DNA of 64,000 nt. Source: Thermococcus cleftensis. Its GTDB lineage: Archaea; Methanobacteriota_B; Thermococci; Thermococcales; Thermococcaceae. Position numbers and translations under genes: made by a program. How positions within the stretch are numbered: the first letter of the stretch is position 1; every line of letters starts with the position of its first letter. Location: NCBI RefSeq assembly GCF_000265525.1, contig NC_018015.1:372001-436000 (forward strand), in the 5' to 3' direction. The notes under the pieces were generated by a model. That model ran no database searches and was not told the origin of the DNA. It saw nothing but the letters and a program-made list of their open reading frames with translations. Positions 12,690 to 43,932 of the stretch are shown in pieces.

Positions 12690-12746
12690 GGCCGATGACG
12701 AGCGTTAGCCACGCTGACGATGATGACAAGAGGGTTAGCCGAGGCC
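12690..12746 (+). ncRNA. C/D box 2'-O-methylation guide RNA
   Basis: Order of elements: stem GGCC (12690-12693), C box GATGACGA (12694-12701), 12-base guide (12702-12713), D' box CTGA (12714-12717), C' box ATGATGA (12720-12726), 12-base guide (12727-12738), D box CCGA (12739-12742), stem GGCC (12743-12746). Both guides are exactly 12 bases, the archaeal norm. The terminal C box has C in place of U, and the D box has C at the partner position. The 3' part overlaps the end of the convergent deacetylase-like gene. Predicted target complements are CGUGGCUAACGC and CUAACCCUCUUG. Confidence 0.75.
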
Positions 12747-13472
12747 CCTTCTACCGTCTCTGTTTTCACACCCCGCCACAGATCTCAAAAAGGCCTTCAG
12801 GAATTCTACGCCGGCTTCGTTGTTGGCGGCCCCGGGGTGGAGTGAAAGGAAGAACGTCCCCCGCGTAAATGCACTGGAGGCCCTGGCGCTGGCCAGTTGG
12901 TAGTCGAGAAGGGGTTCTGGGAGATACCACGTGTACTCGCGGTTGTAAATCGGCTCAGCGGTTCCATTGGGGAAGTAGATAAAGTCCTCACCGATGACGG
13001 TTATGTTGTGGTCGAGGAGAACACCCAGGGCGGGCTTTGAAAGGGAGTAGCGAGGGGCTATGAAGTACTCGGGAGTCGCGTTGATGACCGCCAGAGCATC
13101 AAGGCCGAGCTCGAGCTTTCTCCCCGCGGTGCTCGCGTTGCAGTCGAACTCGTCCCCAACGTGGGTGTAGCCGTGGAGTTCCACGTGGTAGCCCTCGCGC
13201 TTCAGCCCTTCAATGAAGTCCATAAAAGCCTTGTACTTCCACATCGGCATCTTTCCGCCGTGGTCGGGAATCACGAAGAGGTAGGTCTCGTTCTGAAGGC
13301 CGTATTCATCTATGAGGGCTGTTATCTCTTCGAGCTGGGGAAGGTAGGCGGGGCTGACGTCGTGGATGAGAATCGCAAAGCGGCCGAAGGCCGGGAGATA
13401 AGCTGGACTGCCAAGGGAGCTAGAGGAGAGCAGGACGAGAAACAGTACCGCGAACACCTGAAGCCTCTTCAT
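12735..13472 (-). CDS. secreted polysaccharide deacetylase-like protein (DUF2334 type)
   Basis: About 245 residues. A signal peptide or anchor (RLQVFAVLFLVLLSSSSL) precedes a NodB-like fold: ILIHDVSP holds the catalytic-type Asp, HGYTH holds the two zinc-type histidines, and SLHPG supplies the C-terminal histidine. These are the marks of the DUF2334 branch of carbohydrate esterase family 4-like enzymes. The substrate is unknown. The start at ATG 13472 gives a proper signal peptide. A TTTTTA element about 25 bases before that ATG suggests a leaderless transcript. The last three bases overlap the guide RNA on the other strand. Confidence 0.7.
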   Translation of the reverse strand: MKRLQVFAVLFLVLLSSSSLGSPAYLPAFGRFAILIHDVSPAYLPQLEEITALIDEYGLQNETYLFVIPDHGGKMPMWKYKAFMDFIEGLKREGYHVELHGYTHVGDEFDCNASTAGRKLELGLDALAVINATPEYFIAPRYSLSKPALGVLLDHNITVIGEDFIYFPNGTAEPIYNREYTWYLPEPLLDYQLASARASSAFTRGTFFLSLHPGAANNEAGVEFLKAFLRSVAGCENRDGRRGLG

Positions 13473-13506
13473 CAAAGAGAGAAGGAAAGAAGGCGTAAAA
13501 ACCTTT

Positions 13507-14367
13507 CTAAAGGTGCTTCCTGAGGAAGTCACCAACCCTGACCTTCCACTCCTCCGGGTGGAGCTTCAGCGTCCTGACGTGGGGCGCATCGGTGACCCAG
13601 AGCTCGACGGAGGGGTTAACCTTCTTGTTCCTCTCGTAGAACTCCCTAACCTCTTCAACCTTCACGAGGGGGTCCTTCTCGCCAGCTATGAGGAGAAGGG
13701 GCTTACTGACCCTGTCAGCGTATTCCAGCATGTTGAGCTCCCTCGCCCCGCTGAAGAGCTTGGTGAAGGGCTTGACGAGGTGGTAGAGCCACTCGGGGAG
13801 GCTGGCAAAGTACCTCAAGCCACGCGCCCCCGTCCTGTCGAGGTCTATCGGCGGTGAATCCGCGACGCCACAGGCTACGCGCTCGTCCTCGGCTAGGGCC
13901 CTTATCGTCACAACGGCACCCATCGAGAAGCCGACGAGGCCTATCCTCCCGGCCTTCTCCGGGTGGTTCTTCTCGAGCCAGTCTATGGCGGAGAGAACGT
14001 CGATGAGCTCCCTATCGCCGACCGTGGTGTACTTCCCCTCGCTCTTCCCATGCGCCCTGAAGTCAAAGACGAGGACGCTGTAGCCCTCATTGAGAAGGAA
14101 CTCCATCGTCTGCTTCATGTAAACGTCGTCCCACCTGCTCCTCGTGTATCCGTGGAGAGGGATAACCGTTTTTTCGCCGTTGGGAACCCACCACCCGCTG
14201 AGCCTGAGGCCGTCCCTCGTCTCGATCGTCACCTCATCGTAGTCGAAGCCCAGCTCCCTTGGCGTCCACTCGCCCACGAAGCGGGGCGGCTTGACCATCT
14301 TGTAGCCAACGAAGGCCAAGAAGACGAGGACAAGGAGAAAAAGGGCAAGGAGAAGCCCGACTATCAT
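13507..14367 (-). CDS. membrane-anchored alpha/beta hydrolase
   Basis: A 286-residue protein with one N-terminal membrane helix (IVGLLLALFLLVLVFLAF) followed by an alpha/beta-hydrolase domain. The oxyanion segment is PLHGYTRSRW, the nucleophile elbow is GFSMG, the acid is near AGEKDPLV and the histidine is in DAPHVRT. The nearest general type is the serine aminopeptidase/monoglyceride-lipase-like S33 group; the substrate is unknown. The ATG at 14367 overlaps the stop of the upstream MFS gene (ATGA) and follows a run of G, so the two genes form an operon. Confidence 0.8.
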   Translation of the reverse strand: MIVGLLLALFLLVLVFLAFVGYKMVKPPRFVGEWTPRELGFDYDEVTIETRDGLRLSGWWVPNGEKTVIPLHGYTRSRWDDVYMKQTMEFLLNEGYSVLVFDFRAHGKSEGKYTTVGDRELIDVLSAIDWLEKNHPEKAGRIGLVGFSMGAVVTIRALAEDERVACGVADSPPIDLDRTGARGLRYFASLPEWLYHLVKPFTKLFSGARELNMLEYADRVSKPLLLIAGEKDPLVKVEEVREFYERNKKVNPSVELWVTDAPHVRTLKLHPEEWKVRVGDFLRKHL

Positions 14368-15686
14368 TCCGTTCCCCCCCTGGTTCCTTCCACCTCGAGG
14401 TTCTTCATGAACCACACCATTGGCATCGCCAGGAGGACGAGCAAGGCCCCGATCGGGAAGAGCACCCTGTAGTTTTCACCCGCGAGCTGGACTATGGCGC
14501 CGCCTATCGTGCCCGCCAAGAGGACGGGCAGGGAGCGGGTGGCCTCGAAGAAGCCGTAGTAGCGGCCGGTGAAGGCCTCGCGCTCGAACCTGGTAAGCAG
14601 GTCGCCGATGACCGGGTAGGACGCGGCCATGAGGATACCCCAGCCAATGCCCGCTATCCCAAGGGCGATGGTTATCTCGGCCTCGGTGTGGATGAACCAG
14701 CCCCAGATCTGGGGCAGGGCGAAGATGACGCCGCCCACTATTATGCTGAGGCGCCTGCCGAGCCTGTCGTAGATTATCCCGCCGGGCAGCGCGCCGAGGA
14801 GGACGGTAACGTTGAAGAGGGCCATCAGGTAGAGGCCGAGCGATGTCACGGCCTTTATGTTCTCCTCGCTCGCGGAGCCGTGGAGTATGTAGGCCAGTAT
14901 GCCGTAGAGGAAGATGGCTATGAACTCGAAGCTCATCCACCAGAGGGTCTGAGCGGCGTAGAACTTGAGGAAGTCGCGGTTCTCGACGATGCTCTTGAGG
15001 TATCCCCAGAGGCTCTCGTTCTCCTCTATCTCCGGCGCCTCTGGCTCCCTGATGATGAAGTAGACGAAGAGGGCCGCACCGATGAGGAAGGCGGCGGTGA
15101 CAATAAATGGTATCTTGAGGTAGGGCGTCTGGGCCAGGGCCTTAATCCCCTCGCTCTCCCCGGTCTCGGCCACGGCCAATGCCATGAGGTAGCCGGCCAG
15201 GCCGAAGAGGAAGAGGTTGCCGGCCCACTCGAGGAGGGTTATGACGCCGCTCGCCTTGCCCCTGTGGCCGCTCTCAACGGTGTCCGGCATGAGGGCGCGG
15301 TACTGGGCGGTGTAGACGTGCATCGACAGGTAGAAGAAGCCCAGGGTTAAGGCGAAGCCCCACAGGGGGACGCCCATGGCGTAGCCGGTGTATATCATCA
15401 GGACGGCCACCCCCGCCATCAGGCCACCGACCATTATGAAGGGCCTCCTCCTGCCGTGGCGGGAGCGGAGGGTATCGCTGTAATAGCCGAGGAGAACCGG
15501 AATGAACAGGCCTATAAGGCCCTCGATGGCCAGTATCGTTCCCTTAACGAAGGCCGACTCGGTGTAGCTCGAGAGGAGCGGGAAGGACAGTCCCTTGTTG
15601 AGCGCCCAACCAACGCTCCTGCTGAAGCCGAGCAGGGCAAGACTCAAAACAACACCCCATTGAAATCCTCGCCCTCCCGATTTCAT
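14364..15686 (-). CDS. MFS transporter, SLC45/GPH-like
   Basis: A 440-residue carrier with 12 predicted membrane segments. The loop 2-3 motif is GYYSDTLRSRHGRRRPF, and its second-half equivalent is GGIIYDRLGRRLS. The RxGRRRPF form is typical of sucrose/maltose-type (SLC45-like) and glycoside-cation symporters, so a sugar or glycoside is a reasonable guess. The start at ATG 15686 follows GGTG. It is followed by an overlapping hydrolase gene. The promoter shares the CTATATAGACTATA element with the next MFS gene at the same 19-base distance from the start codon. Confidence 0.8.
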   Translation of the reverse strand: MKSGGRGFQWGVVLSLALLGFSRSVGWALNKGLSFPLLSSYTESAFVKGTILAIEGLIGLFIPVLLGYYSDTLRSRHGRRRPFIMVGGLMAGVAVLMIYTGYAMGVPLWGFALTLGFFYLSMHVYTAQYRALMPDTVESGHRGKASGVITLLEWAGNLFLFGLAGYLMALAVAETGESEGIKALAQTPYLKIPFIVTAAFLIGAALFVYFIIREPEAPEIEENESLWGYLKSIVENRDFLKFYAAQTLWWMSFEFIAIFLYGILAYILHGSASEENIKAVTSLGLYLMALFNVTVLLGALPGGIIYDRLGRRLSIIVGGVIFALPQIWGWFIHTEAEITIALGIAGIGWGILMAASYPVIGDLLTRFEREAFTGRYYGFFEATRSLPVLLAGTIGGAIVQLAGENYRVLFPIGALLVLLAMPMVWFMKNLEVEGTRGGTE

Positions 15687-15704: not shown

Positions 15705-15720
15705 CTATATAGACTATATA
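15705..15720 (-). promoter_or_regulatory. shared operator-like element, copy 1
   Basis: CTATATAGACTATATA begins 19 bases upstream of the MFS start codon. The first 14 bases are identical to 17125-17138. A TATA-like GTAAAAACTT (minus strand, 15731-15740) lies further upstream, so the element would sit at or just after the transcription start, as expected for a repressor site. Confidence 0.55.
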
Positions 15721-15783
15721 CCTGGGAAGGAAGTTTTTACCTTTTCGGTTCAACTAACAAAGGAACAAAGGAAAAGAAAGGAC

Positions 15784-17106
15784 TCAGTCCATGTCCGGAA
15801 TGTAGTCCAGGGCGTCACCCTTCGTGCGGACGACGTCCCCGCGCCTGACGAACTGCATCGCTATCGCCGCCAGAATAAAGAAGGCCGTGGCGAATGGCAG
15901 CAGAGTCCTGTAGCCGATGACGTCGAGGAAGGCCCCAGCAAAGGGCGGGGCGACGAGGTTGGCCGCCTGGCTGAAGAAGTAGTAGAGCCCGGTGTAGCCG
16001 CCGAGCTTCTCCTCGGTGGTCATGTCCACGACCATCGGCAGGGAGTTCACGTTCACCATCGCCCAGCCCATTCCACCCACGAAGAACAGCCCCATCAGCG
16101 TCATCACCACAGGGTCGCTCAGGGAGCTGGACTGGGGCCTGGAGCTCTCGCCGACGAAGTAGGCCGCGAGCATTATCGCGACGATGATCATGAGGCCGAG
16201 GGTTATCGTCCTCCTCCTTCCGAAGCGGCCGCCGATGAAGCCGGCTGGAATTGCAAAGAGCATGAAGCTCAGGCTGAAGACGCCGAGCATGAAGGCCCCG
16301 GTGCTCTCCTCGATGCCGAGGTAGTACTTGGCGTAGCTGGTGAAGAACGTCTCCAGGGAGTTGAAGGCTATGAACCAGAAGAATATCGCTATGAGAACCG
16401 CGAGTAGGCTCTTCTCGTGGCTGGCAAAGACGTCCTTGAGGTTCTCCCTCAGCTCACCGAAGCTCTTGTGGGAGGTCTCCGAGAGGAGCTTTCTCAGGCT
16501 CACCTTCTCCCCCGGCTTCCTGTACTCATCGGGCTCGGGGACGAAGAGTATCACGAGCAGGTTCGCGAGGAGCATCACGGCCGCGCCGAAGTAAAAGGGG
16601 TAGGCGTAGTTCATGTCGTAGAGGACCTTGCCGCCGAAGTAGGCCAGCAGGGCGCCGAGGCCGCCCATGAAGTTGATTATACCGTTGGCCTGGGAGCGCT
16701 TCTCGCTGGGCGTTATGTCGGGCATGAAGGCCACGACCGGAGAGCGGAACAGGGCCATGAAGAAGTTCATGAAGATTATAGTCCCCATGAAGAGGGCGAG
16801 GTTTTCGTACTCCCTCGCTACCGGAATGAGCGCGAACATCAGGGCCGCGGACGGGGCGCCGAGTAGAATGTATGGCTTTCTCCTGCCCAGCCTCGTCCGC
16901 GTCATGTCGCTCAGAGCGCCGAGGAACGGGAGTAACAGCACCGCGAAGAGGTTGTCTATGGTCATTATGAAGCCCGTCACCGTCTTGCTGAGGTGGAATG
17001 TGTCCTGCAGGAATATCGGTATGTAGGCGTTGTAGAGCGCCCAGATGATGCTTATGCCGAAGAACCCGAATCCAAGGACGAATATCCGACTGTATTTGAA
17101 CTCCAA
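15784..17106 (-). CDS. MFS transporter, SLC45/GPH-like
   Basis: A 440-residue, 12-segment carrier related in style to the next MFS gene. It carries the loop motif GALSDMTRTRLGRRKPYI and the second-half equivalent GGRFGRRRT. A sugar or glycoside substrate is inferred from the family. The start is TTG 17106, preceded by GGGGTGGG with short spacing; there is no in-frame ATG at this position. The promoter carries the shared 14-base element at 17125-17138, and a TATA-like TTAAAAG lies beyond it that may also serve the divergent glycerophosphodiesterase gene. Confidence 0.8.
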   Translation of the reverse strand: MEFKYSRIFVLGFGFFGISIIWALYNAYIPIFLQDTFHLSKTVTGFIMTIDNLFAVLLLPFLGALSDMTRTRLGRRKPYILLGAPSAALMFALIPVAREYENLALFMGTIIFMNFFMALFRSPVVAFMPDITPSEKRSQANGIINFMGGLGALLAYFGGKVLYDMNYAYPFYFGAAVMLLANLLVILFVPEPDEYRKPGEKVSLRKLLSETSHKSFGELRENLKDVFASHEKSLLAVLIAIFFWFIAFNSLETFFTSYAKYYLGIEESTGAFMLGVFSLSFMLFAIPAGFIGGRFGRRRTITLGLMIIVAIMLAAYFVGESSRPQSSSLSDPVVMTLMGLFFVGGMGWAMVNVNSLPMVVDMTTEEKLGGYTGLYYFFSQAANLVAPPFAGAFLDVIGYRTLLPFATAFFILAAIAMQFVRRGDVVRTKGDALDYIPDMD

Positions 17107-17124
17107 GTTCCCACCCCCATGATA

Positions 17125-17138
17125 CTATATAGACTATA
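17125..17138 (-). promoter_or_regulatory. shared operator-like element, copy 2
   Basis: CTATATAGACTATA begins 19 bases upstream of the TTG start of the second MFS gene, the same distance as copy 1 before the other MFS gene. It is flanked so that ACTATAGT forms a small palindrome. Confidence 0.55.
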
Positions 17139-17203
17139 GTGACGGGAAATCTACTCCGAGAAACTTTTAAGGATTTTGAGTCCATACCTGAGCGGCAGAG
17201 GAG

Positions 17204-17956
17204 ATGACAATTGCAGACAGTGAACAGGTTTTCATCTTGGGCCACCGTGGGTTCAGAGGAAGGCTTGAAAACACACTTCCAGCATTCAGGAGAGCGCTCC
17301 AGTACGCGGACGGAATAGAGTTCGATGTCAGACTAACAGGAGATGGAAAGCTCGTAACCCACCACGATGCGGCTTTCAGCTCAGGCGGCTCTTCCCACAG
17401 GCTCCGGGAGCTGACGTTGAGAGAAATAAGGAAGCTTCACCCCCTGGGCCGGCTCATACCGAGGGTCGAGGAAGTGCTGGACGCTTTTCCAGGTGCGGTT
17501 TTCAACGCGGACGTCAAGGAAAGTGAGGCCGTTGAACCGGTACTGAGGGCTGTGGAGAGGAAAGGCAGGGTTGAGAGCACAGTGTTCTCCTCCGATGATC
17601 CAGCGGTGGTGTCCCTCCTCATGAGGGAGTGTCCGGACTGTAAGGCAGGCTTCTCAATAACCGGCTATCCCTCCGCGGTGGTGCTCCCGAGGCTCAGGTG
17701 CATATATTCCGTCCACGTACCGATAGATGTCGTAACCTACATCGGCTACAGGAATCTCATTGTCCTTCTTCGGGCGCTCAGGAGGAGGGGCTTGAGGATA
17801 TACCTCTGGAACTACAAAATGAACGAACTGATCTGGATCCCAAGGCTGCTCCCCCTCGCGGACGCAGTCATCTCGGACGACCCTGCCAGGTTGAGGAAAG
17901 GTTTTTACGGGGAGGGAGTATTTTCCTGGGGCGATTCCAATGTGGGAAAGGGATAA
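17204..17956 (+). CDS. glycerophosphodiester phosphodiesterase
   Basis: A 250-residue GDPD-family TIM barrel that would hydrolyse glycerophosphodiesters to glycerol-3-phosphate and an alcohol. The catalytic block is present: [12 protein letters not shown] (His-Arg-Gly and Glu-Asn), [17 protein letters not shown] and the FNADVKE strand. The ATG at 17204 follows GAGGAG, and a CTTTTAAGG TATA element lies near 17164-17172. The gene overlaps the next GDPD gene by 17 bases and heads a run of glycerol-metabolism genes. Confidence 0.85.
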
Positions 17957-18686
17957 GGTTATAGTGCTCGGCCACAGGGGTTACATGAGCAGGTTCCCCG
18001 AGAACAGCCTTTTAGCGTTCAGGAAGGCGATCGAATCGGGTGCCGATGGAATCGAGCTTGACGTCTGGCTGACGGGGGACGGGAAAGTCATAGTAATGCA
18101 CGACGAGACCATAGACAGGACGAGCGATATGAGCGGAAGGCAGAAGGAGATGACGCTTGAGGAGCTCAGGAAGGCGGACATAGGGATGGGCGAGAGGATT
18201 CCAACGCTGGAGGAGGTCTTCGCGGTTCTGCCCGAGGGTGCCCTAATCAACGTTGAGCTCAAGGACAGGGACGCGGTGGAGAAAGTGGCCGAGATAGTGA
18301 AAGCCAACAATCCTCGGAGGGTAATGGTCTCGTCCTTTGATATTGAAGCCCTCAGGGAATACCGAAAGCACGACGAGGAAACCACGATGGGGCTTCTCAT
18401 AGACAGGGAGGAAGTGGTCCCCCTGATTCCGAAGCTGAAAGATGAGCTCAACCTCTGGTCAATAAACGTTCCGATGGAGGCAATCCCCCTACTCGGCTTC
18501 GAGAAGACCCTTCAGGCCCTTCACTGGGCGCGCTCCCTCGGCCTTAAAGTGGTTCTCTGGACCGAGAACGATGGGCTCTTCTACGCCGACGACAACCTCG
18601 CGAGGCTTAAGGGCCTCTTCGAGGTCGTCATAGCGAATGACGTAGAGAAGATGATCAGATACCTCAGAGAACTGGGGCTCAGGTGA
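17940..18686 (+). CDS. glycerophosphodiester phosphodiesterase, second copy
   Basis: A 248-residue GDPD-family enzyme with the full set of marks: [30 protein letters not shown], and NVELKD. It overlaps the preceding paralogue by 17 bases, and the two are probably one transcript. The pair differs enough not to be a recent duplication. Its product, glycerol-3-phosphate, is the substrate of the dehydrogenase encoded downstream. Confidence 0.9.
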
Positions 18687-18739: not shown

Positions 18740-20221
<1,482 letters not shown>

Positions 20222-43842: not shown

Positions 43843-43932
43843 ATGGAACTTCGGGACTATTTGATGCCGGGGGAGTATATCCTTACCGTCTTCACTAATC
43901 TTGATATTTCTCCGGGGGACTTAATGGATTAG
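43843..43932 (+). CDS. tiny reading frame, possibly a gene remnant
   Basis: A 29-residue frame whose ATG follows an excellent GGGAGGAGGG site and a TATA-like GTATTATACTC at 43817-43827. The peptide (start MELRDYLMPGEY) resembles nothing recognised. It stands where the toxin partner of the preceding antitoxin-like gene would be expected and may be a truncated remnant. Confidence 0.25.
   Translation: MELRDYLMPGEYILTVFTNLDISPGDLMD

Follow-up and report, generated by a model that had tools for sequence, protein, structure and literature searches.

A palindrome upstream of two MFS carrier genes of Thermococcus cleftensis is a probable operator of the Thermococcales phosphate regulon

Two MFS carrier genes within the 64,000-nt stretch of the Thermococcus cleftensis genome analysed here (the window) are each preceded by a copy of a palindrome, and both copies are probably operators of the Thermococcales phosphate regulon, with the fusion protein AbrB-PhoU as the most likely regulator, repressing at high phosphate. 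Across the Thermococcaceae, the palindrome is linked almost exclusively to genes encoding PiT phosphate permeases, while its presence at MFS genes is confined to a few lineages.

The palindrome in two MFS promoters

The window contains just two copies of the 14-mer CTATATAGACTATA, at 15705-15718 and 17125-17138. Both begin 19 nt upstream of a start codon on the minus strand, namely the ATG of MFS1 (15686-15684) and the TTG of MFS2 (17106-17104), in agreement with the initial annotation. In a simulation of 20,000 promoter pairs of matching composition, drawn from a first-order random model, none contained a 14-base run at equal distance and 0.01% contained any common 14-mer, so the repeat before MFS1 and MFS2 is beyond chance. 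What had been overlooked is the symmetry: the 14-mer covers the greater part of a palindrome of 15-17 bp, (C)TATATAG-N-CTATATA(G). Operator 1 (15705..15721, no strand assigned) belongs to the MFS1 promoter, its end being 19 nt from the ATG, and holds the perfect 15-bp core TATATAGACTATATA at 15706-15720, i.e., TATATAG-A-CTATATA. Operator 2 (17125..17141, likewise without strand; CTATATAGACTATAGTG) has its core at 17126-17140, with two mismatches to TATATAGNCTATATA, and is located in the divergent promoter region of MFS2 and a gene of the glycerophosphodiester phosphodiesterase (GDPD) family. The separate TATA-like elements reported initially were also seen further upstream. That of MFS1, GTAAAAAC (15733..15740, minus strand), has CGAAAA, a possible BRE, upstream of it, and its core is kept in relatives as ACCGAAAANGTAAAAAC in the promoter alignment. 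That of MFS2, CTTAAAAG (17164..17171, minus strand), is found in orthologous promoters as well and, reading CTTTTAAG on the plus strand, may also serve GDPD1.

Both carriers comprise 440 aa and match Pfam MFS_1. MFS1 (14364..15686, minus strand; E 3.9e-24) has orthologues in 77 of the 94 family genomes, and its end is overlapped by the gene of an alpha/beta hydrolase that has a membrane anchor at its N-terminus (13507..14370, minus strand; Pfam Peptidase_S15/Hydrolase_4). The open frame of a DUF2334 protein (12735..13535, minus strand; Pfam DUF2334, E 2.6e-32) in turn overlaps the end of the hydrolase gene, making it a possible third member of the MFS1-hydrolase unit. MFS2 (15784..17106, minus strand; TTG start; E 7.4e-52) has orthologues in 64/94 family genomes. 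Divergent from it is GDPD1 (17204..17956, plus strand; Pfam GDPD, E 3.5e-18), the start of which lies ~62 nt from the end of operator 2, followed by an overlapping gene for a second glycerophosphodiester phosphodiesterase, GDPD2 (17940..18686, plus strand; Pfam GDPD, E 1.3e-36). Downstream of this pair, a glycerol kinase-like gene starting at 18740 displays an in-frame TAG at 18893-18895 (codon 52) with the frame open on both sides. The TAG is due either to a sequencing error or to disruption of the gene.

Distribution in the genome and the family

A genome search, as the initial annotation had proposed, showed copies to be rare rather than numerous and unrelated, as only four sites with at most two mismatches are found in the 1.95 Mb genome: those of MFS1 and MFS2/GDPD and two in PiT promoters. 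The PiT sites are located at 43899-43913, 36 nt upstream of the gene for a 306-aa permease, and at 1207557-1207571, ~12 nt upstream of the ATG of the gene for a 320-aa permease, and the two proteins match Pfam PHO4 with E values of 1.5e-53 and 3.5e-75, respectively. A search of PiTC, the third PiT gene of this genome, found no strong palindrome site. Sites with three mismatches were left out of the analysis because their count over the whole genome is at background level (20 versus 26 for a reversed control pattern).

With at most one mismatch, the palindrome is present in 89 of 94 Thermococcaceae genomes covering all six genera, including all 74 that are near-complete (74/74), and the table sum of forward-strand matches is 186 compared to 20 for the reversed control. 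For inspection of neighbouring genes, 124 distinct sites with 0-1 mismatch were fetched. PiT genes, of three kinds (A, B and C), follow 99 of these, while five sites precede MFS1 or MFS2 homologues, four lie between arsC and an ACR3-type gene, and 16 are in other places, several of them within genes. Among the perfect sites examined, 48/49 precede PiT genes, the remaining one being the MFS1 site of the window. The full site spans ~17 bp, CTATATAGNCTATATAG, with a C before the core in most PiT sites and often a G after it. The operator is hence common to phosphate-uptake genes across species, as in a phosphate regulon.

This distribution bears directly on the initial proposal of a dedicated, sugar-responsive repressor acting on the two carriers and the coupled hydrolase. 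While such a repressor would agree with the equal spacing of the site before two carriers, the site is an operator of PiT genes family-wide and most MFS orthologues are without it, leaving the proposal extremely improbable, and it was rejected on account of the family-wide PiT operator. What stands of the original operator reading is that the element is common to both promoters, but it is not exclusive to these carriers.

Several other arrangements were observed. Some PiTA promoters hold two overlapping tandem palindromes 9 bp apart (L235, L165, L158 and L222, at 1501-1524 in each), an arrangement that suggests two dimers next to each other on the DNA. The sequence TATGTAG[GC]CTATATA is kept between arsC and the ACR3-type gene in four species of two genera (L044:2033-2047, L079:2002-2016, L081:2067-2081 and L220:1501-1515), and these sites could connect arsenate resistance with the phosphate regulator. 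In addition, three genomes of a single genus have TATATAGACTACATA or its complement conserved upstream of a DNA helicase-like gene (L051:2043-2057, L019:1501-1515 and L021:1501-1515).

Position of the site and direction of control

In PiTA and PiTB promoters, an AT-rich peak is found 22-32 nt upstream of the palindrome centre, as expected of a TATA box if the start coincides with the site, and the distance from the centre of the TATA-like element to that of the palindrome is ~24 nt for MFS1 and ~35 nt for MFS2. Given the usual archaeal TATA-to-start spacing, the site would fall over the transcription start or the beginning of the leader. The earlier placement of the element over the predicted start or leader, downstream of a separate TATA-like box, is consistent with this. 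Location over the predicted transcription start suggests a repressor position and, because of this overlap, repression when phosphate is plentiful.

It could be argued that the element, being TA-rich and including TATATA, is merely the TATA box of both genes, yet a separate TATA-like element lies upstream, and the centre of the PiTB palindrome is so close to the start codon (~20 nt, an interval that includes a Shine-Dalgarno-like GGTGG) that a TATA box there would misplace the start. Moreover, a TATA box, expected ~26 nt upstream of the transcription start, does not require exact dyad symmetry with C/G at fixed positions. This identity was rejected on position and symmetry, the AT-rich peak being distinct from the palindrome, and its probability is close to negligible.

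Activation instead of repression is unlikely, though two arrangements speak for it: between the divergent ars genes, both TATA-like elements have the palindrome on their upstream side, an order that suits activation better than repression, and in a genome of a sister family (G113), the site is also upstream of a TATA-like element. At PiTA, PiTB, MFS1 and MFS2, in contrast, the TATA-like element is followed downstream by the site, which covers the predicted start. The ars arrangement could mean that the regulator works in another way there or that the site serves a related protein.

MFS promoters in relatives

The starts of ~60 MFS1 and 56 MFS2 genes were read. Sites with 0-2 mismatches were found at MFS1 in the window genome (G000) and in G054, G060, G066 and G057, and at MFS2 in G000, G062 (one mismatch) and G024 (two mismatches), while nearly all other MFS1 and MFS2 promoters read are without the site. 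The MFS1 promoter core, ACCGAAAA.GTAAAAAC, is the same in seven relatives, making this a transporter promoter in which the core is kept and the operator differs from that of orthologues. In the MFS1 promoters of L089, L091, L094, L103 and L106, the position that holds the phosphate palindrome in G000 is occupied by the inverted repeat TTTTGACA-N6-TGTCAAAA, intact or decayed, which looks like the operator of some other regulator.

Because the MFS orthologues of most species are without the site, both carriers look like late recruits to an old phosphate regulon, captured in G000 and a few other lineages. Perhaps the GDPD gene divergent from MFS2 was recruited too. In G054 and G060, an MFS1 homologue and a divergent GDPD gene flank the operator, which is ~62 nt away from the start of GDPD, as in the window. 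Since the operator separates MFS and GDPD genes in these two genomes and in the window, it is a fair guess that the carriers and the GDPD enzymes have a joint role in glycerophosphodiester use.

A candidate regulator

AbrB-PhoU is the most likely candidate for the palindrome-binding regulator. The fusion protein (304 aa) is encoded by a single-copy gene at genome positions 1292044-1292955, one of four PhoU-domain loci, and consists of an N-terminal MazE/AbrB domain (PF04014, E 3.5e-12) and a PhoU domain (PF01895, E 9.6e-14). A structure search gave no solved structure for any close relative. Homologues are present in 91/94 family genomes, a universality shared with other transcription factors, so co-occurrence does not single AbrB-PhoU out. 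The promoter of its gene has CTATATA or a close variant in 40 of 40 cases read, and in the 20 closest promoters CTATATA is invariant, located between a variable spacer and the start, while in two genomes of genus g5 the half-site is further upstream. In the genome studied here, this promoter holds only the half-site, with no palindrome site within three mismatches.

Further evidence comes from the sister families of the class, where 9 of the 15 loci read associate the AbrB-PhoU homologue with pstSCAB-phoU, the gene being divergent from it, close to it or located at its end, and Pfam confirmed the pst or phoU neighbours at all three loci tested (3/3). The sole match to ATATAGNCTATRT in the 2.8 Mb of G113 is positioned ~50 nt upstream of pstS, in front of a pst operon that ends in the AbrB-PhoU gene; as this pattern was framed after the site had been seen, the match is supportive and not independent. 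The AT-rich pst intergenic regions of sister families contain many TATATA runs and, except for G113, were treated as uninformative.

The operator could instead be bound by another factor, e.g., a winged-helix protein, with AbrB-PhoU acting elsewhere. Within the Thermococcaceae, AbrB-PhoU was not seen adjacent to a palindrome-bearing operon or to phosphate transport genes, its own promoter has a half-site only, and winged-helix proteins make up 73% of the transcription factors listed for P. furiosus (PMC6316755). On the other hand, the pst adjacency in sister families, the conserved half-site, located where an operator would be, and the pst match of G113 all point to AbrB-PhoU, and binding by another factor appears rather unlikely.

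Phosphate as the probable signal and a proposed mechanism

Phosphate is not the only anion that could be considered as the signal, as the best NCBIfam match of both PiTA and PiTB is the sulfate permease CysP. If the PiT-family genes encoded CysP-like sulfate permeases, the regulon would respond to sulfate or sulfur. However, the two scores (100 and 186 bits) are well under the cut-off of 400, PiTC genes carry the operator in other genomes, PiTC in this genome is followed by a PhoU-like DUF47 gene, and the links to GDPD, ars and pst genes indicate phosphate. A sulfate or sulfur signal is therefore very unlikely. Phosphate also fits expression data from T. kodakarensis, where the phosphate transporter gene Tk2061 and other phosphate genes rise in iron(II) medium, where the solubility of phosphate is low (PMC12827226), an agreement that is not a direct test of the operator.

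From these sequence patterns, we infer AbrB-PhoU binding, repression, phosphate as the signal and the substrates of the carriers, and the following mechanism can be proposed. A dimer of AbrB-PhoU, with an AbrB domain of the MazE type, would bind (C)TATATAG-N-CTATATA(G) over the transcription start, and with plentiful phosphate, the bound regulator would block initiation. When phosphate is scarce, the regulator would be released, allowing PiT phosphate permeases to be made and, in this species, the two MFS carriers and the hydrolase as well. The divergent glycerophosphodiesterases are perhaps co-induced, and the extended response would serve the scavenging of organic phosphate.

More broadly, it could be speculated, with somewhat less than even confidence, that this is a one-protein archaeal phosphate switch, ancient in the class, where AbrB-PhoU senses phosphate status via PhoU and acts at TATATAG-N-CTATATA as a direct repressor of PiT or Pst promoters. 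Individual lineages would then have brought genes for organic-phosphate scavenging under its control, and some species the arsenate-resistance genes too. A search of the literature on archaeal and Thermococcales phosphate regulation and for the exact motif strings, with RegPrecise outside its scope, found no description of the operator or, at the DNA level, of how these archaea control phosphate genes. If true, the proposal names a candidate regulator together with its operator and regulon, all open to direct testing in a genetically tractable Thermococcus, and makes organic phosphates the substrate class to try for the two unassigned MFS carriers.

Comparison with known systems

The proposed regulon resembles Pho regulons, i.e., the bacterial PhoB/PhoR system and the archaeal PHO stimulon, in its targets, phosphate uptake and possibly organic-phosphate scavenging, and in the proposed involvement of a PhoU-domain protein. 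The PHO stimulon of Methanosarcina mazei includes pstSCAB-phoU and phoA (PMC6864096). The model presented here differs in having no two-component system, in a palindrome situated over the predicted transcription start and in targets that are mainly PiT permeases. PhoB-type sites are direct repeats, unlike this palindrome. The candidate regulator has both domains known from AbrB/MazE and PhoU proteins, but in fused form, and the fusion would join DNA binding and a phosphate-signalling domain in one protein. Finally, the Thermococcales glycolytic motif (TrmBL1/Tgr) is likewise a palindromic archaeal operator common to many promoters. That motif reads TATCAC-N5-GTGATA and has sugar-metabolism targets, whereas the site described here differs in sequence, spacing and target genes (PiT) and falls outside that group, bearing out the initial view that the element is distinct from the glycolytic motif.
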